A stretch of 45,854 nucleotides of DNA, from positions 1 through 45,854 of the IMG/VR virus record IMGVR_UViG_3300044641_006875. One strand, written 5' to 3'. Position 1 is the stretch's first letter, and each line of letters starts with the position of its first letter. A program made the position numbers and the translations under genes. The stretch comes from a virus. Under the pieces are notes generated by a model that saw only the letters and a list, made by a program, of their open reading frames with translations, did no database searches and was not told where the DNA came from. This document shows, piece after piece, positions 1,942-45,196 of this stretch.

Positions 1942-3195
1942 TTAATAATTTTTTTTATTTTCCATGTAAAAATCATATAATGGCTTGTTAATCATTAAAA
2001 TAGATTCAAAATTTATTTTTTGATGTGGTCTATTTTTTTCTAAATATGTGATGTGATCCGTAGCATTTTTAAATTTATCAAAATATTCTGGATCATTATC
2101 TAAATACTCTCTTTCAATTAGAAATGAAAGATAATATCTAAAAGAATTTATTGTTTCATTATGTTCATTTTCAAATTTAACCAAGAAGTCGTCTATTAAT
2201 GATTTAATTAAATGTTTGGGAAATGCTAGTGGTGTTAATAGACTAAAAGAATCACCAACATAACATGTTTGAAAACCAGGTAAAACATTAAACTCTATGC
2301 AAAGGCGATATAGGTTTTCTAAGTCGAATAATGTTGGTGTAGTAATAGTAATTGCTAGGTACACCTTAATATTGTTAAATTCATTCCTTGCTTTAATAAT
2401 TTGAGAAAAATTTTCCCTCCAGGATATGTAATCTAAATTAGTTCTTATCCATTCACCAACATCACCAGTACCATCTAAACTACATGAAAAATCTACTCTT
2501 TTAAAATGTTTAAAATAATCAACAATTGAAACACCTTTATAATGAATGATCGATAGATTTGTGTTATATCTTAATACAACATTTTTAGCTTTATCATTTT
2601 TAATTAATTTGTCAAGGGTCTCCCAATGTGTTTTCCAGTAAAGGGGCTCACCACCAGCCCAGTACATATCAATAATATTTTCAAAAATATCTTCTTTATT
2701 AATCTCACTTTTAATGATATTTTCACTAACCACTCTTTGATCATGATTTAAAATGTTTAGTTCAATACCATTTTTAACTTTTTCTGCTTGTATTTGTGTT
2801 GAACACCCTTCCCAACACATTTTACACTTAAAATTACATACGTTTGTTCTATAATCAATCGATATAGGATATTTTACATAGCTACCGTCATCTTCGGTAT
2901 CACTAATAACTGAATCTATTAAGTCTCTAAATTTATCATTAAAGAAATTTTGATAAGTATGTGGGCTTGATGTGTTTTCATTACATCTGTTACAGATACT
3001 TAACTTCTCACCATTTAACATCTTTTTACGTATTTCTTTCATTTCTGTGCTATTCCACATTTCATCTAATGAAACATTAACACCAAAATTATGATCAGAA
3101 ATACAACATAGTTGACGCTCCCCTTGTGCTGATATGTGCGAATGAACCCAAGGAACAATACAAAAAGATTTATTATTTTCTAAATTTATACGCAT
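1942..3195 (-). CDS. Twitch-domain radical SAM protein
   Basis: A 417-residue protein. The N-terminus carries FCIVPWVH (11-18) followed by C30/C31 and a C-N-R-C pair (68-71), an arrangement seen in 'twitch'/SPASM-type auxiliary iron-sulphur modules placed before the core. The radical SAM cluster motif is C120-x3-C124-x2-C127, and the GGEP motif appears near 185. Radical SAM enzymes cleave S-adenosylmethionine to start radical chemistry; the substrate of the phage twitch group is not known to me. It stands between the large RNA candidate and the tRNA-Met gene, so modification of an RNA or a neighbouring product is possible but unproven. Length and motifs look intact. Confidence 0.82.
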   Translation of the reverse strand: MRINLENNKSFCIVPWVHSHISAQGERQLCCISDHNFGVNVSLDEMWNSTEMKEIRKKMLNGEKLSICNRCNENTSSPHTYQNFFNDKFRDLIDSVISDTEDDGSYVKYPISIDYRTNVCNFKCKMCWEGCSTQIQAEKVKNGIELNILNHDQRVVSENIIKSEINKEDIFENIIDMYWAGGEPLYWKTHWETLDKLIKNDKAKNVVLRYNTNLSIIHYKGVSIVDYFKHFKRVDFSCSLDGTGDVGEWIRTNLDYISWRENFSQIIKARNEFNNIKVYLAITITTPTLFDLENLYRLCIEFNVLPGFQTCYVGDSFSLLTPLAFPKHLIKSLIDDFLVKFENEHNETINSFRYYLSFLIEREYLDNDPEYFDKFKNATDHITYLEKNRPHQKINFESILMINKPLYDFYMENKKNY

Positions 3196-17742: not shown

Positions 17743-18090
17743 TTATTTTTTATTTTTTGTCAAGCTTTTATATAAATTTAATATTTCAGAACATTTTTCA
17801 TAGTCTTCAATATCTTCAAAGTATGGCATTATGTGATCAATAAGAATTTCTGGTTCTTTCTTTAATAGTTGAAATTCTGTTTTCCAATCCATAACATCAT
17901 TTTTATCCAGAAGAAGGCTGGCGTTAACAACAAATTTAATTTCTCTTTTTTTTGTTGTTAATAATTGTTTAAAGGAGTCGACAACCCCGTTATATATTAG
18001 TGGTTTATTTTTATCTAGAAAATCTTCAAAGGATTTATACTTTCCTGTCACATGAACATCGAGTGTCTCTGGTTTGTTAGTTGTCCGCAT
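17743..18090 (-). CDS. Hypothetical protein downstream of the RNA ligase
   Basis: A 115-residue, charged, mostly helical protein without export signals. It overlaps the end of the RNA ligase gene by 14 nt, so it is probably made with it. Family unknown. ATG at 18090 is the only reasonable start. Confidence 0.6.
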   Translation of the reverse strand: MRTTNKPETLDVHVTGKYKSFEDFLDKNKPLIYNGVVDSFKQLLTTKKREIKFVVNASLLLDKNDVMDWKTEFQLLKKEPEILIDHIMPYFEDIEDYEKCSEILNLYKSLTKNKK

Positions 18091-19252
18091 TCTTAAATGG
18101 TTTTGAGTATGTTGGGTATATAATTTTCCAGATTATATTACTATAATCTTTTTTGTTTAACATCGAAAATAAAATGCTTGAATTTTCACATTTTATTGCT
18201 TCAAGTGCAAATGATTTTCTGTCCTCAATATTACAGCTTTTTACAATTGTGGCAAAATCTGTTAATGATTTTTTTTCAATATTTTCATATTGTTTTATTA
18301 GATCTTCAGCGGTCTTATCTACCCAGCCATAGAACTCATCTGGCACGTCTTTAATAATTTCATCAAATGATTTATTATCCTTAAGAAGCCCCCAAATATC
18401 TCTTGATGAAATACCTGTTAAAATTTTATGTAATCTTTTATATTCTTCACCTTTGATTTTCATGCGAAAACCATTCATGAAACGAATAACATAACCCTCC
18501 CTATCATTTGATATCTCTTCTTTTAATAAATCATAACCTTCACCCCAAGTTTTGTACATCATCACAAGCTCGAACCCCAAATCTTCGTAGTGTTCACTGT
18601 ATATGTTAAATTCTCGACCTGTATTTGTTTGAATAGCACCTAATAAAACCAATTTTTCTTCATTGTTATAATCAACAACGATTCTATTTTCAGGATAGAT
18701 TATTTCAAACAAATATGTACAATCTGTTGATAGTTCACTGTATTTGTATTTACTTAATATTTCAGCGCCTCTAATTGCTTGTGGTGAAGTAAACGATCCG
18801 CGAGTTGCTAATATCCATTCACCCTTTTTCTTTGGTGTTGGATCATAATATGGATTATCAAAATCAGGTAAGTTATTAGGATCAAAAAACCTTTCCATAC
18901 CAGTTTCATAATTGTTATTAAACCAGATGTTATATCTTCTTTCATCACTCAATTCATATTCGTAATAAAAAAGAATACCTAATGATCCATCCATTTTTTC
19001 ATAAACCTCAAAATTTTCATTTGGAATGTCCTCTGGTTTATGCTCTTCGTAATTAAAAAATTTCTTGAACGGTCTTGCAACAATATCACCTTTTGAATTG
19101 GTGACCAAACCCCTACATTGTATTGTTATTTCATCCCACAGTTTTTCGTATTGAACTTTAGGACTATAATTCCATATAGTTAGATCAAGTGTTGGGTGAA
19201 TTTGTTTGTGTAACAAACCATCGTTGTAATATTTTTCTAATGTAGTTAACAC
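18077..19252 (-). CDS. rnlA: T4 Rnl1-type RNA ligase
   Basis: A 391-residue protein joining 3'-OH and 5'-phosphate RNA ends with ATP. The nucleotidyltransferase motifs are all present: CRGLV (46-50), motif I EKMDG with catalytic K86, motif III LFEIIYPENR (181-190), motif IV EGYVIRF (252-258) and motif V MKIKG (264-268). The start is GTG at 19252; the N-terminal layout before motif I suits the family. Upstream lies the polynucleotide kinase gene, so the pair forms a repair system for cleaved RNA, in T4 directed at tRNA cut by anticodon nucleases. The local tRNA cluster supplies a likely substrate. Confidence 0.88.
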   Translation of the reverse strand: MLTTLEKYYNDGLLHKQIHPTLDLTIWNYSPKVQYEKLWDEITIQCRGLVTNSKGDIVARPFKKFFNYEEHKPEDIPNENFEVYEKMDGSLGILFYYEYELSDERRYNIWFNNNYETGMERFFDPNNLPDFDNPYYDPTPKKKGEWILATRGSFTSPQAIRGAEILSKYKYSELSTDCTYLFEIIYPENRIVVDYNNEEKLVLLGAIQTNTGREFNIYSEHYEDLGFELVMMYKTWGEGYDLLKEEISNDREGYVIRFMNGFRMKIKGEEYKRLHKILTGISSRDIWGLLKDNKSFDEIIKDVPDEFYGWVDKTAEDLIKQYENIEKKSLTDFATIVKSCNIEDRKSFALEAIKCENSSILFSMLNKKDYSNIIWKIIYPTYSKPFKNADN

Positions 19253-19319: not shown

Positions 19320-19742
19320 TTACATTTTGATTTGAAACCTATCTTTCATTTGTTGGAGTTTCTCTTTGGGTACCCCATGTATATTTTCACCACCATGTCT
19401 ATTTTCAACAATGATAGTATGTATTCTGTAATTATACCTTTCAGCCATTTCAAAATATGGCTTCATTTCCCATTCTTCAGTAAAGGTATTAGCTACAACA
19501 ACTTTTGAAAATTCTAGTCTCATTCTATCTGCACATATTTGCTGACAGTTATTGTGTGCTTCTTTAAGTTTTGTTGGGTCAAAATTATAATTACCCTTGT
19601 CGTCCATGAAATAGTTATCCGCAGATATAACGTCTGGTCTATTACCTTGATTTGACTGAAGCATTACTTCACCAAGTGTTGTTTTACCAGATCCTGGTAA
19701 ACCCCTTAATAATATTAAATCACCAACCCATTCTGTTGCCAT
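19320..19742 (-). CDS. P-loop polynucleotide kinase-like protein
   Basis: A 140-residue protein with Walker A GLPGSGKT (14-21), followed by ISADNYF near 39-45 and the NYNFDPTKLKEAH signature of the small kinase group related to the T4 Pnk kinase domain and N4BP2-like proteins. It probably phosphorylates 5'-OH RNA or DNA ends. No phosphatase domain is attached, unlike T4 Pnkp. It lies 4 nt after a small membrane protein gene and 67 nt before the RNA ligase. Confidence 0.8.
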   Translation of the reverse strand: MATEWVGDLILLRGLPGSGKTTLGEVMLQSNQGNRPDVISADNYFMDDKGNYNFDPTKLKEAHNNCQQICADRMRLEFSKVVVANTFTEEWEMKPYFEMAERYNYRIHTIIVENRHGGENIHGVPKEKLQQMKDRFQIKM

Positions 19743-20762: not shown

Positions 20763-22781
20763 CTAAATAATCTTCGTTTTTATCACCATTTTTTCTTTAA
20801 AGGTAATTTTTGTTGATGTGTTTTCTTTAATATTACCCTTTAAAATCTCATCACTAAGGAAATCTTCGCAAAGAGATTGAATTATTCTTTTTATTGGTCT
20901 AGCACCGTATTGTTCTTCCTTATTTCTTTTAAGAATTTCGTTTAAAACAGACGCATCAAATGTTATTTGATATTTCTTTTCATTTAAACGACTAACTAAA
21001 CGATCCATTTCAAGCTTTACAATTTTCTTAAGTGCTTCTTCACCAAGAGGGTTAAATAAAATGATATCATCGATTCTATTTAAGAACTCTGGATTGAATT
21101 GTTGCTTAAGTGATTTCTGTATGATAGTTTTTTTAACCTCATATTGTTGTGTTTCACTACTAGATGTTGTAAAACCAACGCCACCACCAAACTCAGACAC
21201 CTTTTTTGCACCAATGTTAGATGTCATGATAATAAGTGTGTTAGTAAAGTTAACTTTTCTACCAAATGCATCTGTTAAATGACCTTCATCTAAAATTTGT
21301 AGAAGTAAATTGAAGACATCTTTATGAGCCTTCTCAATTTCATCAAATAATATAACAGAAAACGGGTTATTTTTAACTTTCTCAGTTAACTGGCCACCTT
21401 CTTCATAACCAACATATCCTGGAGGAGAACCGATTAATCTTGATACGGTGTGCTTCTCCATAAATTCACTCATGTCAACACGAATAACATTATCTTCAGA
21501 CCCAAAAATTAAATTAGATAATGTTTTTGCTAGGTATGTTTTACCAACACCGGTGGAACCTAAGAAAATAAAAGAACCAATTGGTTTTTTATTATCTTTA
21601 ATACCAACGCGATTTCTTCTAATAGATTTTGATATTGCAGTTATCGCTTCATCTTGACCGATTACTTTTTCTGAAAGTTTAGTCTCTAAATTTAGCAAAT
21701 TAGACACTTCGTTACTATCCATCTTTGAAATAGGGATACCAACCATATTTGAGATGATATCATACACATCATCAACGTCCACTGGTATTAAAAAGTCTTT
21801 TTGTTTTTCTAACCATTTAGCTTTTTCATCATCTAACTTTTTAATCACCTTCTTTTCTTCATCTCTTAATTTAGCTGCAACCTCATAAACTTGTTTTTTA
21901 ACAACTTCATGTTTTTTCTCTTTAATTGACTCAATTTCTTTTTTTAATTTCTCAATAATTTCTGGTGCTTTTGTAACAACCCTTTTTTCTGATCCTAATT
22001 CATCCAATACATCAATAGCTTTATCGGGGAATTGTTTATCGGTCATAAATCTACCAGACAATCTAACGATTGTTTCAATAACCTCATTACCATATGAAAC
22101 TCTATGGTATTCTTCATACGAATCTTTAAGGTTTTTTAAAATTTCAACAGTTTCGTTTTCTGTTGGTTCTTTTAAAATAATTTTCTGAAATCTTCTAACT
22201 AACGCACCGTCTTTTTCAATGTGTTTTTTAAATTCATCAAATGTTGTTGCGCCTATACATTGCATTTCACCTCTAGCTAACGCTGGTTTTAAAATGTTCG
22301 CCGCATCCATTGAACCAGATGCATTACCAGCACCAACCATTGTGTGTAACTCGTCAATAAACACAATAACATCCGGGTTTTCTTGTAACTCATGTAATAT
22401 CGCTTTAATTCTTTCTTCAAATTGTCCGCGATATTTTGTACCAGCAACTAATGATGTTAAATCAAGTGATACTAATCTTTTATCAATCAAATTTGAAGGA
22501 CAATCACCCTTTGATATCATTAGTGCTAATTTTTCAACTAAAGCCGATTTACCAACACCAGCATCACCAACAATCACCGCATTGTTTTTCTTCTTTCTTG
22601 AAAGAATTTGTGCAATTCTCTTAACTTCCTTATCCCTACCAACAACTGGGTCTATTTTTCCTTCTTCCGCCATCTTAATCAGGTCTCTAGAAAAATTATC
22701 TAAAATAGGTGTTGTTGAGTTAACCCTTTTGTTTTTAGGATTAGCTCTAGGGTTCTCATCATAACCAAAATCTACTGCCAT
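20763..22781 (-). CDS. ClpC/ClpB-type AAA+ unfoldase lacking the N-domain
   Basis: A 672-residue protein with two AAA+ modules. Module 1 has Walker A GDAGVGKS (72-79) and Walker B VIVFIDE (138-144). A short coiled middle segment (about 271-330) follows, of ClpC rather than ClpB size. Module 2 has Walker A GSTGVGKT (408-415) and Walker B VILFDE (476-481). The Clp N-terminal repeats are missing. The VGF tripeptide at 535-537 lies where ClpC carries the loop that docks on ClpP, so it could feed the host ClpP protease. It is divergent from Hsp20, with which it shares a regulatory gap. Confidence 0.9.
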   Translation of the reverse strand: MAVDFGYDENPRANPKNKRVNSTTPILDNFSRDLIKMAEEGKIDPVVGRDKEVKRIAQILSRKKKNNAVIVGDAGVGKSALVEKLALMISKGDCPSNLIDKRLVSLDLTSLVAGTKYRGQFEERIKAILHELQENPDVIVFIDELHTMVGAGNASGSMDAANILKPALARGEMQCIGATTFDEFKKHIEKDGALVRRFQKIILKEPTENETVEILKNLKDSYEEYHRVSYGNEVIETIVRLSGRFMTDKQFPDKAIDVLDELGSEKRVVTKAPEIIEKLKKEIESIKEKKHEVVKKQVYEVAAKLRDEEKKVIKKLDDEKAKWLEKQKDFLIPVDVDDVYDIISNMVGIPISKMDSNEVSNLLNLETKLSEKVIGQDEAITAISKSIRRNRVGIKDNKKPIGSFIFLGSTGVGKTYLAKTLSNLIFGSEDNVIRVDMSEFMEKHTVSRLIGSPPGYVGYEEGGQLTEKVKNNPFSVILFDEIEKAHKDVFNLLLQILDEGHLTDAFGRKVNFTNTLIIMTSNIGAKKVSEFGGGVGFTTSSSETQQYEVKKTIIQKSLKQQFNPEFLNRIDDIILFNPLGEEALKKIVKLEMDRLVSRLNEKKYQITFDASVLNEILKRNKEEQYGARPIKRIIQSLCEDFLSDEILKGNIKENTSTKITFKEKMVIKTKII

Positions 22782-22946: not shown

Positions 22947-23315
22947 ATGATTACATTATTTAAAGACCCCTTTTTTGAAGCGTTTGATAAAGTATTAGAT
23001 GCTTCTCGCTACACAGTTAGCCCACAAACTAATATTCACAAAACAGAGAGTGAATATAAAATAACAATGTCATTACCTGGTTTAACCAAGGATGATTTAA
23101 AGATTTCATTAAAGGAAGGTATTCTTAAAGTATCATTCGAGAAGGATGAGAAAGATGAAAGAACACATTTCGTTGATAATTTCACCAAATCATATAATAT
23201 ACCTGATGATGTTAGAGAAAAGGATATTGTTGGTAAGGTTGAAAACGGAATACTGGTGTTAACCCTACCAATAGATAAGAAAAAGTCATTAGAAAGACTA
23301 ATTTCACTTAACTAA
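22947..23315 (+). CDS. Hsp20 small heat-shock protein (alpha-crystallin domain)
   Basis: A 122-residue ATP-independent holdase. The alpha-crystallin domain spans about 27-117, from NIHKTESEYKITMSLPG to the typical NGILVLTLP (about 101-109). The N- and C-terminal arms are short. Hsp20 genes are frequent in T4-like phages. It is divergent from the Clp gene and followed by its own terminator, so it is monocistronic. Confidence 0.92.
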   Translation: MITLFKDPFFEAFDKVLDASRYTVSPQTNIHKTESEYKITMSLPGLTKDDLKISLKEGILKVSFEKDEKDERTHFVDNFTKSYNIPDDVREKDIVGKVENGILVLTLPIDKKKSLERLISLN

Positions 23316-28094: not shown

Positions 28095-28119
28095 AAGTGG
28101 TCAAATCGACCACTTTTTT
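28095..28119 (+). terminator. Rho-independent terminator before the terminase gene
   Basis: AAGTGGTC / GACCACTT perfect 8-bp stem, 5-nt loop, T-run to 28119. Confidence 0.88.
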
Positions 28120-28121
28120 CA

Positions 28122-28129
28122 TATTTATA
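28122..28129 (+). promoter_or_regulatory. Late-type box TATTTATA, 3 nt before the terminase ATG
   Basis: TATTTATA-CGT-ATG, immediately after a terminator, so a promoter is required here. Confidence 0.6.
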
Positions 28130-28132
28130 CGT

Positions 28133-29917
28133 ATGAGTCAAAAAATAGAACAATTAAAAGAATATGCGCGTATAATAAAAGATACTCCATACGCACTTAG
28201 AACATATCTACAGACTTTTGATAACACACAAAAGAAATTTGTGCCGTTAGAATTGTTTCCTGATCAAATACAGTTGTTAAAAGATTATGAAACATATAAT
28301 GAAAATATTACTAGAAAATATAGACAAGCCGGTGTTACAACAGTAACAGCAGCATGGTTATCAAAAAAATTACAATTAGCAAAACCAGAAAATCCTGAAA
28401 GGGTTTTGATTATTGCAAACAAAAGAGACACCGCAATTGAGATGGCGAATAAGGTTCGTCATTTCTTAGATCAATGGCCAGAATGGTTGAATGTGGGGTT
28501 CTCACCAGATAAAAACTCAGAAAGTAGATTTAGATTAAATAACGGATCAGAAGTAAAAGCCGTTGCAACATCTGCGGATGCTCTTCGTGGTTTTACACCT
28601 ACGGTACTTGTATTTGACGAGGCTGCGTATATTGAGGCCGGAGAAGACTTCTGGGCGGCTTCTATGGCGTCTTTGTCTACCGGTGGTAAGATTATATTAA
28701 TTTCAACACCAAACGGTTATGATCCAATTTATTATGGTGTATATGAACAAGCAATTAGAGGTATAAATGATTTCCATATTACTGATTTAAGATGGTTTAA
28801 AGATCCAAGATATACTAAAGACTTAGTATGGGTTAAAGTACCGGATATTGTACATTACATGTTAAATAGAGAGCAGTATAATGATGATGAGGTTCTATTA
28901 AAAGAATTTGATTTAACAAAGTATAATGAACTATTAGATGCTGGTTATCAACCATATTCATCTTGGTTTGAATCAATGTCTAAAAAATTCAAATATGATA
29001 AAAGAAAAATTGCACAAGAGCTTGAATGTGACTTCTTAGGATCTGGTGATAGTGTTATTCCAAACGAAACAATGGAAAAAATCGCCAAAAACATGATTAA
29101 GCAACCGAAAGAAAAATACATGCAAGGGTTACTTTGGCAATGGAAGGAGCCAGAACAAGGTCATAGATATATTATGGGGGTTGATGTTAGTAGAGGTGAT
29201 AGTGATGACTTTTCAGCAATAAACATTGTTGATTTTGATGGTAGAGAACAAGTTCTTGAATATGTTGGTAAGATGCCACCAGATGATTTAGCATCTGTTG
29301 CATATAAATGGGGTATATTATATGACGCGTTTATTGTTATTGATATTACTGGAGGTATGGGTGTTGCAACATCAAGAAAGTTACAAGAGTTGGGGTATAA
29401 AAATTTATTTATAGATGGTATTAACACAAAAAATGTTTGGGAATATAATGCCAAAGCAATGGAAAAAATACCTGGTATTAATTTTAATAATAAAAGAACA
29501 CAAATTGTTGCAGCATTCGAGGAACAATTGAGACATGATTTTGCTGTTAGATCAAATAGATTATTAAATGAACTTAATACATTTGTTTATATCAACGGTA
29601 AACCAGATCATATGAAAGGTGCTCATGATGACGCAATTATGAGTATAGCAATAGCATTGTATGCTGGAGACATTTCTTTTACACAACTAGTAAGAAACGA
29701 ACAACAAAATAAAGCGATGCTTGAGTCTTGGGTTATGTCTGAAAGAACATATCAAGCACCACAAACAGAAAATTATTCATATGGTACCAGTTTTGACCAA
29801 GTAGGTATGATGCAGATAGATAGTTCACCATATGCTAAGGCTAGTTCTTCTCAACCAGCAAAAGAACAATATCAACAGTATAACTGGTTGTTCGGTACAA
29901 ATAAAAAGGCTTTATAA
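28133..29917 (+). CDS. terL: Terminase large subunit (T4 gp17-like)
   Basis: A 594-residue packaging motor ATPase and nuclease. The deviant Walker A RQAGVTT (64-70) and Walker B VLVFDEAA (158-165) match T4 gp17. The RNase H-like nuclease has GVDVSRG near 349, VIDITGG near 402 and HDDA near 497, all catalytic carboxylates present. I place the start at ATG 28133; the frame is open to 28097 but that part is the terminator and promoter. No small terminase subunit was recognised in the window. Confidence 0.96.
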   Translation: MSQKIEQLKEYARIIKDTPYALRTYLQTFDNTQKKFVPLELFPDQIQLLKDYETYNENITRKYRQAGVTTVTAAWLSKKLQLAKPENPERVLIIANKRDTAIEMANKVRHFLDQWPEWLNVGFSPDKNSESRFRLNNGSEVKAVATSADALRGFTPTVLVFDEAAYIEAGEDFWAASMASLSTGGKIILISTPNGYDPIYYGVYEQAIRGINDFHITDLRWFKDPRYTKDLVWVKVPDIVHYMLNREQYNDDEVLLKEFDLTKYNELLDAGYQPYSSWFESMSKKFKYDKRKIAQELECDFLGSGDSVIPNETMEKIAKNMIKQPKEKYMQGLLWQWKEPEQGHRYIMGVDVSRGDSDDFSAINIVDFDGREQVLEYVGKMPPDDLASVAYKWGILYDAFIVIDITGGMGVATSRKLQELGYKNLFIDGINTKNVWEYNAKAMEKIPGINFNNKRTQIVAAFEEQLRHDFAVRSNRLLNELNTFVYINGKPDHMKGAHDDAIMSIAIALYAGDISFTQLVRNEQQNKAMLESWVMSERTYQAPQTENYSYGTSFDQVGMMQIDSSPYAKASSSQPAKEQYQQYNWLFGTNKKAL

Positions 29918-29950: not shown

Positions 29951-29958
29951 TATTTATA
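29951..29958 (+). promoter_or_regulatory. Late-type box TATTTATA, 4 nt before the portal ATG
   Basis: TATTTATA-TAGT-ATG in the 45-nt gap between terminase and portal genes. Confidence 0.58.
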
Positions 29959-29962
29959 TAGT

Positions 29963-31765
29963 ATGGCGAATCAAGATTTGACAGTTTTTCAGAAATTAAC
30001 CAAGATATTTGGTTTTCAAAACAGTGGGGCACAGAATCCACCGTCATTTAACTTTTCAAGAGAAGAGTTATTGAAAACAGATGATCCGGTTGAGTTTGAA
30101 AAAGCAAAATTACAAGCACAACAATCACAGTTCCTTTTTGACAAATGGGCCAAGTTAGATAATTCATTATATAATCAATCTGTATATTATGAACCAAACA
30201 GACTTGCGGCTTATTATGACTATGAATCTATGGAGTTTACTCCAGAAGTGTCTGCAGCGTTAGATATCTATGCTGAAGAGTCAACAACAATGTCAGAAAA
30301 AGGATATATTTTAAATGTTTATTCTGAATCTAAAAGAGTTAAAAATGTATTGGTAGATTTATTTGAAAATAGATTAGATATTAATACCAATTTACAAATG
30401 TGGGCCAGAAACGTATGTAAGTATGGTGATAACTTTGTTTATTTAAAAAGTGATCCGGAAAGGGGTATTGTTGGGTGTCATCAATTACCTAACATCGAAA
30501 TAGAAAGAATTGAAGGTGCGCAGGCGAAAGTACCAAGCATGGATAACATAAAATCCCCGATTCGCGAATTGAGATTTGCATGGAAAAATAGAGACATGGA
30601 ATTCCAATCTTGGGAATTAGCACATTTTAGACTATTAGGTGATGATAGAAAGTTACCATATGGTACATCCATGCTAGATAAGATTAGAAGAATTTGGAAA
30701 CAACTTTTACTTGCTGAAGATGCTATGTTAATTTACAGAACATCAAGAGCACCAGAAAGACGTGTGTTTAAAATATTTGTTGGAAACATGGACGATAAAG
30801 ATATCGAACCGTATGTACAACGTGTTGCAAATAAATTTAAAAGAGATCAGGTTGTTGATAGTAGAAATGGTCAAGTAGACATGAGATACAATCAGATGGC
30901 TGTGGATCAAGACTATTTTATACCTGTTCGTGACCCAGCAGCACCAAGTCCTATTGAAACTTTAGCTGGTGCACAAAATTTAGGGGAGATTGCGGATATT
31001 GAATATATTCAAAAGAAATTGTTGGCTGCTCTTCGTATACCTAAAGCATTTTTAGGTTTTGAGGAAGTTGTTGGTGATGGTAAGAACCTTGCATTAATGG
31101 ATATTCGTTTTGCAAGAACAATTAATAGAATACAAAAATCATTAGTACAAGAATTAAATAAAATAGCTTTAATTCATTTATACCTTTTGGGATTAGAAGA
31201 TGAATTAGAAAACTTTACTTTAGGTTTAACAAATCCATCATCTCAGTCTGATCTATTAAAGATTGAACAATGGAAAGAGAAAGTTACTCTTTACAAAGAT
31301 GCAACATCAGATCAATCACAGGTTGGTATATTACCTGTGTCACATACTTGGGCTAAGAAAAATATTCTTGGTATGAGTGATAATGAGGTGTTGTTAGATT
31401 TACAACAACAACGTCTTGAAAGAGCAATGGGTGCTGAATTACAAAATACTGCACAGATTATTAAGAGATCTGGTGTATTTGATGAAGTAGATAGTAAATA
31501 TGGTATTCCAGAAGAAGAAAGAGCTAAAATAGAAGCACAAGCACCAGAAGGTGGTGACGAAGGCGCATTAGGCGGCGGAATGCCACCTCCTCCAGCACCA
31601 TCAGGTGGAGAAGCATCTGAGCCATTAAGTGAACAAAAGAAATTTAACAAAATAAATAGTATTTTAGGTGAGTCTCAAGAAATGGGTGATTTATTTGATC
31701 TTGAAAAAGCACAGAAGAATATTTATGAAATAGAGAATAAATTAAACGATATATTAAACCAATAA
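29963..31765 (+). CDS. gp20: Portal protein (T4 gp20-like)
   Basis: A 600-residue protein that forms the dodecameric vertex for DNA entry. Diagnostic parts: RLAAYYDYESMEFTPEVSAA and DIYAEESTT (N-terminal region), NLQMWARNVCKYGDNFVYLK, and KAFLGFEEVVGDGKNLALMD in the clip/stem part, which match T4-type portals. The C-terminal 60 residues are Pro/Gly and acidic. Next to terminase, as in most tailed phages. Confidence 0.93.
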   Translation: MANQDLTVFQKLTKIFGFQNSGAQNPPSFNFSREELLKTDDPVEFEKAKLQAQQSQFLFDKWAKLDNSLYNQSVYYEPNRLAAYYDYESMEFTPEVSAALDIYAEESTTMSEKGYILNVYSESKRVKNVLVDLFENRLDINTNLQMWARNVCKYGDNFVYLKSDPERGIVGCHQLPNIEIERIEGAQAKVPSMDNIKSPIRELRFAWKNRDMEFQSWELAHFRLLGDDRKLPYGTSMLDKIRRIWKQLLLAEDAMLIYRTSRAPERRVFKIFVGNMDDKDIEPYVQRVANKFKRDQVVDSRNGQVDMRYNQMAVDQDYFIPVRDPAAPSPIETLAGAQNLGEIADIEYIQKKLLAALRIPKAFLGFEEVVGDGKNLALMDIRFARTINRIQKSLVQELNKIALIHLYLLGLEDELENFTLGLTNPSSQSDLLKIEQWKEKVTLYKDATSDQSQVGILPVSHTWAKKNILGMSDNEVLLDLQQQRLERAMGAELQNTAQIIKRSGVFDEVDSKYGIPEEERAKIEAQAPEGGDEGALGGGMPPPPAPSGGEASEPLSEQKKFNKINSILGESQEMGDLFDLEKAQKNIYEIENKLNDILNQ

Positions 31766-31767
31766 CA

Positions 31768-32523
31768 ATGAGCAAGATTGGGGTTATAAAAACTAAACTT
31801 TTAAAGAAGTTAACAGAATCATATGGTTCTAACAATAAATCTGAAATGAAAAACATTTTAAAGACTATTGTTGAAAATAAAGAATTTAAAGAAATGTATC
31901 TTTTCTACGAAGAGATTGAGAACAAATATTTTGAAGATAAGGAAACAGCAAAATTATATGTTGAAGGTATTGATACTATGTTAAACCATACTATGGGGAA
32001 ACAACAGGTTAAAAGTTTAAACACGTTTTGTGAATCATTGGACAAAAAGTTAGGTGATATCGAAGTTAACTCTAATGAATTATATGAAGCATTAGATCAA
32101 CTTAGTACAGAAGATTCTTTATTAACACTAGAAAAGAAAATAGTAGCTAAAAAGAAATTAGTTGAGCATTTAACAAAGAAAAAATCAGTAGAAAATATCG
32201 TTGAGAATAACACTTACACCGCAAATGAAAATTTGTTACACGCGGTTCTAGTAAATAACTTTAATAGTTTATATGAAAATACTTTAACTAAAGAAGATAA
32301 AGAACAACTTAAAAGTATTTTAGAGTTAAACGGTGAGGATTTAGTATCAAAAACTAAAGAATTAAAAGAATCTATTTTAAATAAAGTAGACAATATTTTA
32401 TCAGAATCAAAAGATGGTGATTTGGGTAGTAAGCTTCAATCAGTTAAGAATGAGGTTAATACCATGGAGCTATCAAAATACAATTATTACAGATTAACAC
32501 AATTGAAAAATGGTCTTGATTAG
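31768..32523 (+). CDS. Helical protein between portal and protease (possible head-core component)
   Basis: A 251-residue, Lys/Glu/Leu-rich, mainly helical protein. It starts 2 nt after the portal gene. In T4 this interval holds small prohead core proteins (gp67, gp68), so a core role is possible by position only; no sequence match can be shown. Its stop codon lies within the terminator stem-loop at 32509. Confidence 0.6.
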   Translation: MSKIGVIKTKLLKKLTESYGSNNKSEMKNILKTIVENKEFKEMYLFYEEIENKYFEDKETAKLYVEGIDTMLNHTMGKQQVKSLNTFCESLDKKLGDIEVNSNELYEALDQLSTEDSLLTLEKKIVAKKKLVEHLTKKKSVENIVENNTYTANENLLHAVLVNNFNSLYENTLTKEDKEQLKSILELNGEDLVSKTKELKESILNKVDNILSESKDGDLGSKLQSVKNEVNTMELSKYNYYRLTQLKNGLD

Positions 32524-32538
32524 TTAAGACCATTTTTT
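32509..32538. terminator. Bidirectional terminator between head gene and bS21 gene
   Basis: AATGGTCTT / AAGACCATT perfect stem with 8-nt loop and T-runs in both directions. The ends of both convergent reading frames lie inside it. Confidence 0.88.
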
Positions 32539-32711
32539 AATTTCTCCACATAAACAGCTTTTAATACTTCAGCTCTTCTTTTAACTGAAGGTTTAACAAA
32601 CTCTTGTCTTTCCCTTAGTTGTTGTATCTGTTTAGTTCTTTGAACTTTACCTTTGTAGGTCTTTAGAGCACTCTCGATGCTCTTTTCTTTTTTCATGTCA
32701 ATTATTATCAT
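32520..32711 (-). CDS. rpsU: Ribosomal protein bS21 homologue
   Basis: A 63-residue full-length bS21: MIIIDMKKEKSIESALKTYK, then QLRERQEFVKPSVKRRAE and LKAVYVEKL. The R-x-R-Q-x-F/Y-x-KPS-x-x-R core and start match bS21 of Bacteroidota. bS21 joins the 30S subunit late, near the 3' end of 16S rRNA. In Flavobacterium johnsoniae, bS21 with bS18 and bS6 hides the anti-Shine-Dalgarno; as I recall a C-terminal Tyr (Tyr54) does this, and this protein has Tyr at 54. bS21 has been reported in other large phages. No Shine-Dalgarno is seen; a TATTTATA box lies 4 nt upstream of the ATG. Confidence 0.88.
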   Translation of the reverse strand: MIIIDMKKEKSIESALKTYKGKVQRTKQIQQLRERQEFVKPSVKRRAEVLKAVYVEKLKNGLN

Positions 32712-32715
32712 AACT

Positions 32716-32723
32716 TATAAATA
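32716..32723 (-). promoter_or_regulatory. Late-type box TATTTATA, 4 nt before the bS21 ATG
   Basis: On the - strand TATTTATA-AGTT-ATG (start 32711). Confidence 0.58.
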
Positions 32724-32784: not shown

Positions 32785-32792
32785 TATAAATA
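32785..32792 (+). promoter_or_regulatory. T4-consensus late promoter box TATAAATA
   Basis: Exact T4 late box, 18 nt before ATG 32811, and the only upstream copy in this orientation that I noticed. It may be chance in AT-rich DNA. Confidence 0.35.
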
Positions 32793-32810: not shown

Positions 32811-33239
32811 ATGAAAATTGGAAAATTTATTCCATTAGGAGACCACAAGGATGTTAAAGTTGGTTATGGAACTGTAGATTTTAAAAATCTAAAAACCGTT
32901 TATATAAAAATGAACGCATGGGTAGAACCCGATAATGAAAATGAGGACTTTGATAAAACAATTTCTAGAACAAGGAAAAAGATAAAGGACTTTATAAGAG
33001 GATACAATTTAGGTGAAAACTTTAAAAAAGAAAGCATCGTCGATCTTGATATTAGAACTAAGGGGATTAAGTTAAATAAGAGGTCATTTATGAATTTAGA
33101 GGTCACCCTGTTCGTAGACAAATTTTTTGATGTTAAAGCTAATTTCATGAAAAGTTTAATGAAAAATTTCATTCATGAGTCAATTGACACCTGTTTAGCC
33201 GATAAAACATTATTCAATTTTAATAAAACTAAGATTTGA
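32811..33239 (+). CDS. Hypothetical protein between portal and protease genes
   Basis: A 142-residue alpha/beta protein, basic (MKIGKFIPLGDHKDVKVGYG to NFNKTKI). No motif recognised. It could be a small structural or assembly protein by position. ATG 32811 was chosen; an earlier ATG at 32798 is out of frame and soon stops. Confidence 0.6.
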   Translation: MKIGKFIPLGDHKDVKVGYGTVDFKNLKTVYIKMNAWVEPDNENEDFDKTISRTRKKIKDFIRGYNLGENFKKESIVDLDIRTKGIKLNKRSFMNLEVTLFVDKFFDVKANFMKSLMKNFIHESIDTCLADKTLFNFNKTKI

Positions 33240-33253
33240 TTTAATTATCCTTG

Positions 33254-33261
33254 TATTTATA
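33254..33261 (+). promoter_or_regulatory. Late-type box TATTTATA before the protease gene
   Basis: 21 nt before ATG 33283. Confidence 0.55.
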
Positions 33262-33282: not shown

Positions 33283-33972
33283 ATGAAAGTATTAGGGCCT
33301 AATGAATCTGGTAGAGGGATTTTGATTGAATATGACGCAGGACATATATCACCAGAAGAATTAAAAAACAAAAACATAATAACAGAAATACAGAATAAGG
33401 ATACTGATCAAGACCTTATTCTGTATGCTGTTTTACAAAAATATGATACCCCAAATAAGAACGGAAGAATATATCCGGAAATGTTACTTAAAAGGGAAAA
33501 TGAAAAGTATCAACAAATAATCAGAAAAGGTTCGGCTCTTAACGAACTTAATCACCCATCATCATCACTTATTGATTTAGATAGAGTTTCCCACACAATT
33601 ACAGAAACGTGGTGGGATGGTAAAACTTTAATGGGTAAAATCAAAATATTAACGTCACCAGGTTGGAAGAAAATGGGTATTGTTAGCTGTAAAGGTGACC
33701 AAGCCGCTATGTTACTTCTAAATGGTGTTACTTTAGGTATCTCCTCAAGAGGTGTTGGATCATTAAAACAAATAAAGGGACAAAATATTGTGCAAGAAGA
33801 TTTTGAACTAGTTTGTTTTGATTTAGTATCATCACCATCAACGCCTGGTGCTTACGTTTTTCAAGATATTGCTGACAAGGATAAATTTAACGAAACTGTT
33901 GAAGAAAAATCCACATTGGATGATAGAATGAAAAAATTGATGGGTAATATAGATAGTTTCCTTAAAAGATAA
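33283..33972 (+). CDS. gp21: Prohead core protease (T4 gp21-like)
   Basis: A 229-residue serine protease of the herpes/phage prohead type. The catalytic His is in ELNHPSSS (about 86-93), Ser in GISSRGVGS (about 152-160), and the conserved end FELVCFDLVSSPSTPGAY follows. It cleaves scaffold and capsid proteins at short L/I-x-E sites during maturation. Lies directly before the scaffold gene, as in T4. Confidence 0.9.
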   Translation: MKVLGPNESGRGILIEYDAGHISPEELKNKNIITEIQNKDTDQDLILYAVLQKYDTPNKNGRIYPEMLLKRENEKYQQIIRKGSALNELNHPSSSLIDLDRVSHTITETWWDGKTLMGKIKILTSPGWKKMGIVSCKGDQAAMLLLNGVTLGISSRGVGSLKQIKGQNIVQEDFELVCFDLVSSPSTPGAYVFQDIADKDKFNETVEEKSTLDDRMKKLMGNIDSFLKR

Positions 33973-34036: not shown

Positions 34037-34044
34037 TATTTATA
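34037..34044 (+). promoter_or_regulatory. Late-type box TATTTATA before the scaffold gene
   Basis: 20 nt before ATG 34065, in the 92-nt gap after the protease gene. Confidence 0.55.
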
Positions 34045-34064: not shown

Positions 34065-35252
34065 ATGAGCGAAAAATCGATTTTAGAACAAGCACTACTT
34101 CAAGTTAATACACTTGAAGAAGCAGTAAAGCAAAATGCAAAAGGTATACTTTCTTCAGTAATGAAGCAAGAACTAAACGAATTGCTTAAAGAATCAGAAG
34201 AAGAGGGTGATGCTGAAGTTAACGCTGAAGTAGCCCCTAAAGAAGAGGAGTCACAAGATATGTCTGAGCAACCAGCTGATGATGAAGAAGCAGGTGAGGA
34301 AGATGATGAAGAAATGCCCTCAATAAATGATGAACCATCAAAAGATATCGATGGTGACGAATCAGATATGGAAGACGATGAGTTTTCTGATGATGAAGCA
34401 CCAGAAGATGATGAGTTTTCGTCTATGGATATGCCATCAGATGATGACGACACATTAGACATGACAGGAGCCGCAGATGATGAGGTTCTTAAAGTGTTTA
34501 AAGCTATGTCAGATGAAGACGGTATTATCGTTAAAAAAGACGGTAACCATGTTGAACTTTCAGATGGTGATGATGAGTATATCATCAAATTAGACGAATC
34601 TGATTTATCATCTGAAGACGAAATGTCTGAAGAATGGAATGAAGAGGAGGAAATGGATGATGAAACAATCTATGAAATCGAGTTAGACGATGAGCCAGAA
34701 GCTGAAGAGGAAATGTCTGAAGAAGATATGCCTGCTGAAGAAGAGGTTGATGAAGCTGCTCGTACTAAGTGGAATGTACACGGTGGTGATAGAGCAGGTT
34801 TGAAGAGCAAAAAAGTTTTTGTTGCTGGTGCTAAGCATGAATCAAAGCAAGCATCAAAAGCAATTAACGAAGAAGTTGAAAATCTTAGAAAACAAAACGG
34901 CGAATATAAAAAAGCGTTAGTTATGTTTAAAGATAAATTAAACGAAGTTGCTGTTTTCAATGCTAACCTTGCTTACGCTACAAGATTATTCACAGAACAT
35001 TCAACAACAAAACAGGAGAAATTGAATATTTTAAAGAGATTTGATTCAATTTCAACTATAAACGAATCTAAAAATCTATACAATTCTATTAAAGCAGAAT
35101 TAGACACTAAAAAACCAGTGACTGAGGCTGTTGTTGATAAAATTGCTAATACAGCGTCAACATCTTCTTCTCAAGAAGTTTTATCTGAGTCAAAAGCTTA
35201 TGAAGCCCCTCAGTTCAAGAGAATGAGAGATTTGATGAGTAAATTAAAATAA
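34065..35252 (+). CDS. gp22: Prohead scaffold/core protein (T4 gp22-like)
   Basis: A 395-residue protein with an N-terminal helix (EKSILEQALLQVNTLEEAVK), a very acidic centre of Asp/Glu/Ser repeats and a coiled C-terminal third (RKQNGEYKKALVMFKDKLNE) ending FKRMRDLMSKLK. Position between protease and major capsid gene, and the acidic/coiled design, identify it as the scaffold. Several L-x-E tripeptides could be protease cleavage sites. The acidic region is richer in repeats than T4 gp22. Confidence 0.82.
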   Translation: MSEKSILEQALLQVNTLEEAVKQNAKGILSSVMKQELNELLKESEEEGDAEVNAEVAPKEEESQDMSEQPADDEEAGEEDDEEMPSINDEPSKDIDGDESDMEDDEFSDDEAPEDDEFSSMDMPSDDDDTLDMTGAADDEVLKVFKAMSDEDGIIVKKDGNHVELSDGDDEYIIKLDESDLSSEDEMSEEWNEEEEMDDETIYEIELDDEPEAEEEMSEEDMPAEEEVDEAARTKWNVHGGDRAGLKSKKVFVAGAKHESKQASKAINEEVENLRKQNGEYKKALVMFKDKLNEVAVFNANLAYATRLFTEHSTTKQEKLNILKRFDSISTINESKNLYNSIKAELDTKKPVTEAVVDKIANTASTSSSQEVLSESKAYEAPQFKRMRDLMSKLK

Positions 35253-35285: not shown

Positions 35286-37019
35286 ATGGGAGCATTATTA
35301 GAATCAGGTATGGTAGGTAACATCGGTCTTAAGCACCTTCGTGTTATCAAAGAAGATACCATCAAAAAATGGGATGACTTAGGATTCCTAGAAGGCCTAG
35401 ACGGTCACCAAAAAGATAACATCGCGCAATTGTATGAAAACCAAGCGTCTTACTTAATCAACGAAGCAGCAGTTTCTGATGCTTCTGGTTCTTTCGAGAC
35501 TGTGGTATTCCCAATTATCCGCCGTGTATTCTCTAAATTATTAGCAAACGATATCGTTTCTGTACAAGCTATGAACTTACCAATTGGTAAATTATTCTAC
35601 TTCGTACCTAAAATCCAAGAAAGACAATCTAACGCACACAGAGCACCATTCGGTATGCCAGGTAACACTGATGCATCTACCTTAGGTTATGAAACTGGTA
35701 CTACAGATCCAAGAAGTCTTTATGATCGTTTCTACGAAGCAAATGATGCAGCTGATGCTGGTATCTATGATTATTCTAAAGGAGCTTTCTCTGCTGTAAC
35801 TATCAGCGGTGCTTCAGTTGTAACTTTCGCTAATGGCGCAGTTTCTGATGTAACTAACGCTTCTTTAACTGGAACTTCTCAATCTTCATTGATTCTTAAG
35901 TTCTCTGGTTTCACAAAAGATGGTCAAGGTAAATTAATTGGACCTAACGGTTCTGTAATGGATACAGAAGAATTCTTAGCTTCAGCTGTAGTTAACTACT
36001 CTGGTGTTGCAAGAAACTTCAACATTGTTACACAAAAATATGGTAAGGGTATCGTTGAGTATGGTGCTAAATCAACTACAGCAACATATCCTTCTGGAAG
36101 ATTCCAAGATATTTGTGATGAAGAAGGTACAATCTATGTACAAGTAGATTTACAATCTTATTCTTCAACTTCTGGTTTCTCTAACTTAACTTTACCTTCA
36201 GGTTTCACTGCTGATAAAGTAACTTTAGTTTTCAGAACTTATGATACCTTAGAATTCGAAGATCAAATTGGTGAAGTATCATTTGACCTTGCTTCAGTAA
36301 CAGTTTCTGTAACTGAAAGAAAATTAAGAGCTAGCTGGTCTCCAGAATTAGCACAAGACGTTTCTGCGTTCCATAACATCGATGCTGAAGCTGAATTAAC
36401 AGCTTTATTATCTGAGCAAATCGCTGCTGAGGTTGACCGTGAAATTTTACGTGACCTTAGAAAAGGTGCTGCTTGGACTGCTAAGTGGGATTACAACGAG
36501 TGGAAATACGGTGCTACTGGAAACACTCCGTTCATGGGTTATACTCAAAAGGATTGGAACCAAACTTTGGTTACTAAAATCAACCAAATTTCAGCTCAAA
36601 TCCATAAGACTACATTAAGAGGTGGTGCTAACTGGATCGTTGTATCTTCAGAAGTTTCTGCTGTATTCGATGATTTAGAATATTTCCACGTATCTAATGC
36701 TGGTCCTGAGCAAGACTCATACAACATGGGTATTGAGAAAGTAGGTACACTTGCTGGACGTTACCAAGTATACCGCGATCCATATTTACCAGCTGGTAAA
36801 ATTTTGATCGGTCACAAAGGTAAGTCATTATTGGACGCTGGTTATATCTACGCACCTTACGTGCCGTTACAATTAACTCCAACAATGTACAATCCATTTA
36901 ACATGACACCTATCAAAGGTATCATGACAAGATACGCGAAGAAAATGGTTAACAACCGTTACTTCGGTCTGATCAACGTAAGTGGTTTACAAACTTTCGA
37001 TATGAACACTTTAAGATAA
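35286..37019 (+). CDS. gp23: Major capsid protein (T4 gp23-like)
   Basis: A 577-residue HK97-fold capsid protein. Diagnostic T4-type text: AQLYENQASYLINEAA, FPIIRRVFSKLLANDIVSVQ and MNLPIGKLFYFVPKIQ in the first 110 residues, then WSPELAQDVSAFHNIDAEAE and the C-terminal ITRYAKKMVNNRYF-type ending. The N-terminal roughly 55 residues are probably removed by the protease. Codon use shifts to AAC, TTC, ATC and CTT compared with neighbours, as in very highly expressed genes. No late box was found in its 33-nt leader, so it may be transcribed from the scaffold promoter. A terminator follows. Confidence 0.95.
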   Translation: MGALLESGMVGNIGLKHLRVIKEDTIKKWDDLGFLEGLDGHQKDNIAQLYENQASYLINEAAVSDASGSFETVVFPIIRRVFSKLLANDIVSVQAMNLPIGKLFYFVPKIQERQSNAHRAPFGMPGNTDASTLGYETGTTDPRSLYDRFYEANDAADAGIYDYSKGAFSAVTISGASVVTFANGAVSDVTNASLTGTSQSSLILKFSGFTKDGQGKLIGPNGSVMDTEEFLASAVVNYSGVARNFNIVTQKYGKGIVEYGAKSTTATYPSGRFQDICDEEGTIYVQVDLQSYSSTSGFSNLTLPSGFTADKVTLVFRTYDTLEFEDQIGEVSFDLASVTVSVTERKLRASWSPELAQDVSAFHNIDAEAELTALLSEQIAAEVDREILRDLRKGAAWTAKWDYNEWKYGATGNTPFMGYTQKDWNQTLVTKINQISAQIHKTTLRGGANWIVVSSEVSAVFDDLEYFHVSNAGPEQDSYNMGIEKVGTLAGRYQVYRDPYLPAGKILIGHKGKSLLDAGYIYAPYVPLQLTPTMYNPFNMTPIKGIMTRYAKKMVNNRYFGLINVSGLQTFDMNTLR

Positions 37020-38677: not shown

Positions 38678-39133
38678 TTATTTCTTTTTGCTACAGTATG
38701 AACCAGAACATTGTTTTTTACCGTCAAGCCCCTTTATTTTACCCTTACAAACCTGAACAGCATAGCCATTCGCATATGCTGAAGGGTATACCTTGAACTT
38801 AGATTTTGCTGCTGAAATACCTCTTGAGCATAATTTATTACCCTTTTTTTCTGCTTCCGAAAGGTTTTCTTGTTCAAAATTTCCTTTAATGAAATTTGCC
38901 ACCTCTTCGACATCATCTTTTGATGTGGTAATATGATCACCAGCCCACGCATGTTCACCAGTAACTAACTTAGGAAAGTTTGGTTGATGTTTGTATGATA
39001 AGATTGTTTCAATATCTTCTTTTATCTGATATAAATTTTGTAACACCATGTATGTACCATCATCAGTAATATGGTTATCATTTTCTTTTATAAGGTTAGT
39101 TAGGTGTTTTTTCACTATTTTGTTAATGTCCAT
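38678..39133 (-). CDS. Small Cys-containing phage protein with YPSAYAN motif
   Basis: A 151-residue protein. The C-terminus KLCSRGISAAKSKFKVYPSA followed by YANGYAVQVCKG is the recurring phage motif (K-x-K-F-x-V-Y-P-S-A-Y-A-N), often attached to virion proteins. The N-terminus is a basic helix (NKIVKKHLTNLIKEN). Starts 3 nt after a TATTTATA box on the - strand. Confidence 0.72.
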   Translation of the reverse strand: MDINKIVKKHLTNLIKENDNHITDDGTYMVLQNLYQIKEDIETILSYKHQPNFPKLVTGEHAWAGDHITTSKDDVEEVANFIKGNFEQENLSEAEKKGNKLCSRGISAAKSKFKVYPSAYANGYAVQVCKGKIKGLDGKKQCSGSYCSKKK

Positions 39134-39136
39134 TAT

Positions 39137-39144
39137 TATAAATA
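39137..39144 (-). promoter_or_regulatory. Late-type box TATTTATA, 3 nt before ATG 39133
   Basis: On the - strand TATTTATA-ATA-ATG. Confidence 0.58.
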
Positions 39145-44497: not shown

Positions 44498-45196
44498 TTA
44501 ATCTAAAAATCCACCTAAAACACCATCATATAGTAATTTGTATCGTTTAAGCGATATTCTAATCTCTTTTGTTGATAATGATGTCATTTCTCTTAGAGAT
44601 AGGAGGATTAAATTCTTATTAAATTTGTTACCATCACCAATTTGAAAGATCCTATCAAAATTGCTGAATATCTCCAAAAGGGCGTAACCTAATTTTTTTT
44701 CATTATCTGTTAACTCTTCAGTCTCAATAAAATCTTCAAGTTTATTTGTTAGGTTGATAATGACTTCAGAATAATCTATATGATATTCATCGATTGTATA
44801 TGAAAAATCAACCCTGCTCTCAATATCTTCAGAAATATCCTCATATGATATACTTCTGTTTTGATCTTTTGTATCCTTTTGGATGGCCCCCATTAAGTAG
44901 TTCTTACATATGGTACCAAAATAGGAATACGCTTTGTGATTTTTTGTATGGTCAAATTTATTTATTTTAGTTATAAGAAAAGACATTGTATCTGTATGTA
45001 AGTCCTCAAATTCAAAATCTTTTCTATATAACTTGTATCTTCTTATGATACTCTCAACCATTATAATTAGGGGTTCTCGTAAATATTCGTTGAATATCTT
45101 GTTTCTTTCTGCATCGTCACTACTTTCTAGGTAATTAACTACCGCCTTTTCTTGATCCTCCCCAAAATAAACTTTTTGGGTACGTTTTCTTGGCAT
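44498..45196 (-). CDS. gp55: Late transcription sigma factor (T4 gp55-like)
   Basis: A 232-residue sigma70-family protein. Region 2 is visible: MVESIIRRYKLYRKDFEFED, LHTDTMSFLITKINKFDHTK, then HKAYSYFGTICKNYLMGAIQ, as in T4 gp55 and relatives. A region 4-like C-terminus is weak or absent (LSTKEIRISLKRYK). It should recognise the short late promoter without a -35 element; the recurrent TATTTATA boxes in this window are the natural candidates. It overlaps the end of the glycosyltransferase gene by 1 nt. Confidence 0.85.
   Translation of the reverse strand: MPRKRTQKVYFGEDQEKAVVNYLESSDDAERNKIFNEYLREPLIIMVESIIRRYKLYRKDFEFEDLHTDTMSFLITKINKFDHTKNHKAYSYFGTICKNYLMGAIQKDTKDQNRSISYEDISEDIESRVDFSYTIDEYHIDYSEVIINLTNKLEDFIETEELTDNEKKLGYALLEIFSNFDRIFQIGDGNKFNKNLILLSLREMTSLSTKEIRISLKRYKLLYDGVLGGFLD

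Follow-up and report, generated by a model that had tools for sequence, protein, structure and literature searches.

A 45.9-kb fragment of a virus record (analyzed over its whole length and called the window below) encodes a full-length phage isoform of the ribosomal protein bS21, and its gene, rpsU, has no Shine-Dalgarno (SD) sequence, carries a late-type box just upstream of its start codon and specifies the residues that face the anti-Shine-Dalgarno (ASD) tail of 16S rRNA in Flavobacterium johnsoniae. The reading we favor, with confidence somewhat above even, is that this is an SD-independent, ASD-occluding bS21 that is made late in infection and replaces host bS21. No other ribosomal protein is as common in viruses as bS21, and bS21 of Bacteroidota is known to gate mRNAs with strong SDs, host rpsU included; the regulatory anatomy described here is new detail that makes the use of phage bS21 testable.

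Part of this picture is already published. The same arrangement was described in 47 phage genomes with predicted freshwater Bacteroidota hosts, with Tyr or another aromatic residue at position 54, a divergent N-terminal helix and late expression together with structural genes (Chen et al., 2022; PMC9723584). These authors placed helix 1 where mRNA would bind and proposed ribosome substitution, and phage bS21 has also been discussed as a possible replacement by McNutt et al. (2023; PMC9976891). The reverse-strand bS21 gene in the head cluster, Tyr54, late expression and the substitution idea thus date from 2022, and the window is another member of that group. In their text (PMC9723584), promoters, terminators and autoregulation are not analyzed, and GOLLD RNA is not mentioned. 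New here are the SD energies, the box with its spacing classes, and a hairpin shared with the neighboring gene that offers a further explanation of C-terminal conservation.

A phage bS21 isoform within a T4-like head cluster

The rpsU gene is a complete 63-aa open reading frame on the minus strand (32711..32520; translation MIIIDMKKEKSIESALKTYKGKVQRTKQIQQLRERQEFVKPSVKRRAEVLKAVYVEKLKNGLN). Its product matched PF01165 in Pfam over the full domain and above the curated cut-off (46.2 bits against 27 bits; E = 3.7e-12), as well as the S21p model TIGR00030 (34.2 bits; cut-off 28.95), and the best match among solved structures was the bS21 chain of PDB 7JIL (3.7e-13), aligned without gaps over residues 1-62. 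This entry is the ribosome of Flavobacterium johnsoniae (Chen et al., 2022; PMC9723584). The full-length, Bacteroidota-like bS21 that the initial annotation had placed at 32520-32711 is therefore confirmed, on the minus strand, together with the Tyr it had read at residue 54, which was found in 57/57 distinct phage homologues as well.

Homologues on viral contigs were abundant (221 confirmed, 70–97% identity), and 80 of them were fetched. In a second scan, with the neighboring protein as query, rpsU adjoined its convergent neighbor in 74/74 testable contigs; six more contigs were too short, and the pair was absent from none. Comparison of the window gene with nine relatives gave dN/dS values of 0.02-0.22, so rpsU is under strong purifying selection. 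Because of this constraint and the constant location, the reading frame is not a chance one.

The surrounding plus-strand genes form a head cluster with gp20- and gp23-like members, and one relative contig extends to 251 kb. The cluster opens with the terminase large subunit (TerL; 28133..29917; PF03237, phrog_2) and the gp20-like portal (29963..31765; PF07230, 5.3e-75), followed by a hypothetical 251-aa protein (31768..32523) at the position named 'bS21_CN' by Chen et al. Then comes rpsU on the opposite strand and, divergent from it across a 99-nt gap, a second hypothetical gene (32811..33239). Downstream lie the gp21-like prohead protease (33283..33972; PF03420, 2.7e-24), a probable scaffold named for its position between protease and capsid (34065..35252), and the gp23-like major capsid protein (35286..37019; PF07068, 7.2e-74).

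Several other genes of the window are recorded here as side observations. A Clp-type AAA+ ATPase resembling ClpA/ClpB (20763-22781, minus; no NCBIfam equivalog cut-off reached) and an Hsp20 (22947-23315) are encoded near the head cluster. Removal of host bS21 by a protease of phage origin has been a speculation of McNutt et al. (2023; PMC9976891) for phages of this kind. A T4 RnlA-like RNA ligase and a polynucleotide-kinase-like protein (18077-19252 and 19320-19742, minus) are a possible tRNA repair pair, and a twitch-domain radical SAM protein (1942-3195, minus; NF033640, 270 bits) matched prokaryotic viperin weakly.

The ASD-facing half is invariant and helix 1 is phage-specific

In F. johnsoniae, residues of the C-terminal half that include Tyr54 stack on and sequester the ASD tail of 16S rRNA, and phenotypes are known for both Y54A and the deletion (PMC9976891). 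With ASD-contact residues taken from that study and from PMC9723584, we compared 57 distinct phage, 47 Flavobacterium and 30 other Bacteroidia bS21 proteins. Tyr54, R33, R35, K40, S42, R46 and A52 were identical in every one of these sequences, and F38, P41, V43 and K51 were nearly invariant. The C-terminal half of the phage protein therefore keeps the ASD-sequestering residues, Tyr54 among them, and would be expected to sequester the ASD.

Around helix 1, phage proteins carried residues that are absent or nearly absent from hosts (K8, E9, K/R10, S/T14, T18, Q/S/N/G21, Q24 and Q28), and such phage-only substitutions were present in 57/57 of them. Host positions 14, 18 and 21, which lie one or two turns apart and are basic, are neutral in phages, and the acidic host positions 8 and 10 are basic, with net charge little changed; phages uniformly have V23 and K27, which few hosts share. 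The initial annotation had named substitutions in 16S-contact residues as refuting its reading, and on this point the comparison gave a divided answer: nothing varies in the C-terminal half that faces the ASD, but phage-only substitutions are found in helix 1, and given their number, function equal to that of host bS21 is not guaranteed.

All phage bS21 proteins formed one clade (support 100/99) apart from all sampled hosts, in a tree whose 64 columns resolve little. Recent capture of the gene from a host is ruled out by this single phage clade, as far as 64 columns can show.

Phage rpsU has no Shine-Dalgarno sequence

SD strength was scored as the duplex energy between the 25 nt preceding the start codon and UCACCUCCUUUCU, which we take to be the Flavobacterium 16S tail and which was used for all scores, including those of a class-wide Bacteroidia sample (119 genomes, 116 with a match). 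The window rpsU scored +0.1 kcal/mol over positions -25 to -1, and the best value over its whole 99-nt upstream region was -7.2 kcal/mol. No SD was found in 32 distinct phage rpsU upstream regions (median -0.9, best -6.5 kcal/mol), whereas 80/80 Flavobacterium-type host rpsU genes had an extended SD of -18.4 to -21.6 kcal/mol. In F. johnsoniae, ribosomes that lack bS21 mediate the autoregulation of rpsU, by way of an SD stronger than -13 kcal/mol (McNutt et al., 2023; PMC9976891), a threshold of which the window gene falls well short.

These values agree with two claims of the initial annotation, that the phage gene is SD-less and that host rpsU is autoregulated through a strong SD, the latter being both published and matched by the Flavobacterium energies. 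Its further claim, that the phage copy escapes this control, stands as far as the contrast with Flavobacterium goes but is conditional. Among the 30 Bacteroidia rpsU genes nearest the phage protein in the class-wide sample, only 5 reached -13 kcal/mol, and so whether there is any control to escape depends on the host. Escape from host autoregulation is thus plausible and would matter only in hosts that use such control.

The missing SD is, moreover, the default of this phage, since the 49 genes of the window are SD-less too (median -1.5 kcal/mol, against -2.9 for mock windows). The alternative that survives best builds on this default. It holds that bS21, as the last-joining and easily lost 30S protein, is simply topped up because host rpsU mRNA disappears as infection advances to its late stage, with an ordinary protein that leaves ribosome selectivity unchanged. 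The SD-less state of all window genes, among which rpsU is not special, the invariant C-terminal half and the strong purifying selection all agree with such ribosome maintenance. A mere top-up isoform, however, need not diverge so consistently, and at least eight near-phage-only positions in or around helix 1 are fixed across the 57 sequences (K8, E9, K/R10, S/T14, T18, Q/S21, Q24, Q28). We therefore regard maintenance alone as a possibility to be kept in mind, and a doubtful one.

A late-type box precedes rpsU and other phage genes

The sequence TATTTATA lies in sense orientation for bS21 at 32723..32716, spanning -12 to -5 and ending 4 nt before the ATG, and a second copy (32785..32792, minus) lies 73 nt before it. 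TATTTATA is the reverse complement of the T4 late box TATAAATA, that is, the T4 box in the opposite orientation; the late box that the initial annotation had seen in place of an SD is indeed there. The 15 copies in the window are an unremarkable number, reached by 6/100 shuffles. Their placement is another matter: a sense copy lay within 40 nt upstream of 8/49 window genes, whereas shuffled upstream regions gave 0.65 such genes on average and 4 at most. In the reverse, T4-type orientation the box preceded 1/49 genes, and we discarded a T4-oriented signal on this count. Across 309 open reading frames from 21 sources (the window and 20 relatives, many of the frames orthologous), upstream copies were sense in 99 cases and antisense in 3.

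By these counts, sense-strand TATTTATA marks late genes. The same 99:3 ratio rules out that the two boxes belong to the plus-strand gene at 32811, for which TATAAATA reads in plus orientation at 32716 and 32785. Ordinary sigma-70 promoters near rpsU were fewer than in shuffles. We infer that TATTTATA serves as a late promoter for a sigma factor of the phage. A candidate reader, weakly assigned, is encoded at 44498..45196 on the minus strand. This protein matched phrog_351 (sigma factor), and it matched Sigma70_r2 (8e-5, below the cut-off) and the gp55 chain of PDB 7D7C (0.013) weakly.

In many relatives, L017 and L042 among them, TATATTTG is also found about 20 nt ahead of the rpsU ATG. It fits what we take to be the Bacteroidetes housekeeping -7 box, TAnnTTTG, and the relatives that bear it may have a promoter of host type in front of the phage box.

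Box spacing predicts a leaderless class of late transcripts

Grouping the distinct open reading frames of 161 sources by family separated two classes of box spacing. The box lay 3-6 nt before the start codon in 69/69 distinct portal homologues (window box 29951-29958, 4 nt) and in 47/48 distinct terminase homologues, and 3-4 nt before it in 12/12 copies of a gene for a 151-aa protein (38678..39133, minus; box 39144..39137, 3 nt). Among 35 distinct box-bearing rpsU genes, spacing was 4-5 nt in 27, 1 nt in five with overlapping boxes and 18-23 nt in three. It drifted over 18-26 nt for the scaffold (window box 34037-34044, 20 nt) and over 13-22 nt for the protease (33254-33261, 21 nt).

A promoter would be expected to keep a close, rigid spacing in the first class, and to drift in the second, if transcription of the first class must start at the AUG. 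In bacteria, leaderless genes are known by a -10-like box some 10-12 nt ahead of the start codon (PMC3160421), and the box of the window rpsU is placed accordingly. From this promoter geometry, the transcripts of rpsU, portal, terminase and the 151-aa gene are predicted to be leaderless or nearly so, which partly supports the leaderless phage mRNAs invoked in the initial annotation. Leaderlessness of rpsU would not be obligatory, since in one subclade (for example L045 and L048) the box sits about 18-23 nt from the ATG. The spacing classes also favor a corrected terminase start, probably the ATG at 28133, which follows its box (28122-28129) by 3 nt, and not the GTG at 28097 chosen by the ORF finder.

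A predicted leaderless class that includes terminase and portal lends some appeal to the idea, raised by Chen et al. and by the initial annotation, that the altered N-terminal helix switches ribosome specificity and steers ribosomes to phage mRNAs such as leaderless ones. The fixed phage-only residues of helix 1 also fall where mRNA was placed by Chen et al. (PMC9723584). The capsid, protease and scaffold genes, however, lie outside the predicted leaderless class, so that the late mRNA in greatest demand would gain nothing. We consider such steering unlikely.

A shared hairpin closes rpsU and its convergent neighbor

The rpsU gene and the plus-strand gene at 31768-32523 overlap tail to tail, sharing 4 nt here and 8 nt in other clades. 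These shared bases fall inside a 12-pair hairpin (32506..32537) common to both gene ends, whose arms encode the C-termini LKNGLN* and LKNGLD*. Across 25 distinct sequences, pairing was kept in 96% of cells, compared with 37-64% in slid controls. Three pairs were compensated, and several compensated changes were synonymous in both genes (for example GGT to GGA). The hairpin scored as terminator-like and is likely a two-way terminator. Chen et al. (PMC9723584) read the C-terminal conservation of phage bS21 as functional; the KNGL tail is thus under constraint from the hairpin in addition to that from the ribosome, which gives the conservation a second cause.

The neighboring protein itself gave an all-helical AlphaFold model (pLDDT 77.5), which had no fold match in the PDB and matched three uncharacterized phage proteins in BFVD (E < 0.001). 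Homology to gp197 of Flavobacterium phage immuto (hhalign probability 2.6%) and to WWT39306 of Microcystis phage Mel-JY01 (0.6%) was rejected.

GOLLD RNA accompanies phage bS21 in one lineage

A full-length GOLLD RNA (Rfam RF02032; 315 bits) is encoded near a tRNA cluster at 1068-1474 on the minus strand. GOLLD was found in 7/20 bS21 contigs searched, always on the strand of rpsU and 32-45 kb downstream of it. Reckoned from contig coordinates, every contig with clear reach to that distance has it, at 31-45 kb when the window is counted with the other 7; the borderline contig L072 (about 32.5 kb) was negative. Beyond this group, GOLLD was present in two bS21 megaphages and absent from two others and from Mel-JY01, and it was not found in three phages without detected bS21. 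The co-occurrence may be mere ancestry.

The OLE complex includes bS21, and OLE RNA binds it through an ASD mimic (PMC12054373), and ribosomes bind GOLLD in pull-downs (PMC12286853). It could thus be asked whether phage bS21 acts outside the ribosome with another RNA such as GOLLD, and the shared strand in the window and the 7 contigs, with the presence of GOLLD in the two further megaphages, would suit this; we think it very improbable, because the GOLLD core of the window has no CCUCC, the element that bS21 recognizes in OLE, three other bS21 phages have no GOLLD, GOLLD also occurs in phages of other hosts, and all eight positives (the window and the 7 contigs) are one lineage. GOLLD as an OLE-like partner of bS21 stays a lead.

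A proposed late exchange of bS21

We therefore return to a late-made, ASD-occluding bS21 that replaces the host protein. The phage sigma factor would read the box and give rise to a late, leaderless or near-leaderless rpsU transcript. On such an mRNA no SD can act, and synthesis would be independent of ribosomes with a free ASD, which are the regulatory route of host rpsU. The convergent hairpin would terminate rpsU and its neighbor and keep each transcript out of the other gene. Late in infection, phage bS21 would then join the 30S subunit where host bS21 otherwise sits and keep the ASD hidden, leaving ribosomes suited to SD-less phage mRNAs, and its phage-specific N-terminal helix may alter contacts with mRNA or ribosome. 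Host rpsU, which needs a free ASD, would be turned down, and the exchange would lock itself. In its full form, with a leaderless, SD-free late bS21 that shuts off host rpsU by hiding the ASD and that host autoregulation could not reverse, the self-locking exchange is a speculative extension that we hold only tentatively.

The proposal makes two predictions. An SD-free phage copy with the gating residue should repress a host rpsU'-gfp reporter in F. johnsoniae while being immune itself, and the box geometry predicts leaderless terminase, portal and rpsU mRNAs, which can be checked in existing metatranscriptome reads.

Comparison with known systems

The window most resembles the Bacteroidetes jumbo phages of Chen et al. 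(clades a-e), in which a reverse-strand bS21 gene likewise lies between conserved hypothetical genes in the TerL-portal-protease-capsid region. Shared with them are Tyr54, a phage bS21 separate from that of the host, a GC content of about 31–34%, tRNA genes and predicted freshwater Bacteroidota hosts. Those phages are myoviruses with genomes of about 290-330 kb; the window is a 45.9-kb fragment.

The phage protein matches F. johnsoniae bS21 (7JIL; PMC9976891) in length and register, in Tyr54 and throughout the C-terminal half that faces the ASD. It differs in overall identity, which is about 47% to a Flavobacterium bS21 (G003) that matches the F. johnsoniae query 100%, in the rearranged charge pattern of helix 1, and in its gene, which has no SD where the host gene has one of about -20 kcal/mol.

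Phage-borne bS21 is also found in the Pelagibacter phages HTVC008M and Mosig, which infect another host phylum, and in Mosig the gene lies among AAA proteins, a small heat shock protein and a sliding clamp, not among head genes. The bS21 of pelagiphage HTVC008M, the only phage bS21 known to be incorporated, enters 70S ribosomes, as seen in E. coli, although E. coli ribosomes with the viral protein, a foreign pairing, are nearly inactive (~5%; PMC6375957). Microcystis phage Mel-JY01 likewise carries rpsU (L164, 8140-8367) within a homologous T4-like head cluster; there, unlike in the window, the gene is co-oriented with the late genes, lies between protease and capsid and belongs to a phage of a cyanobacterial host, which suggests that rpsU was acquired independently at the head-cluster locus.
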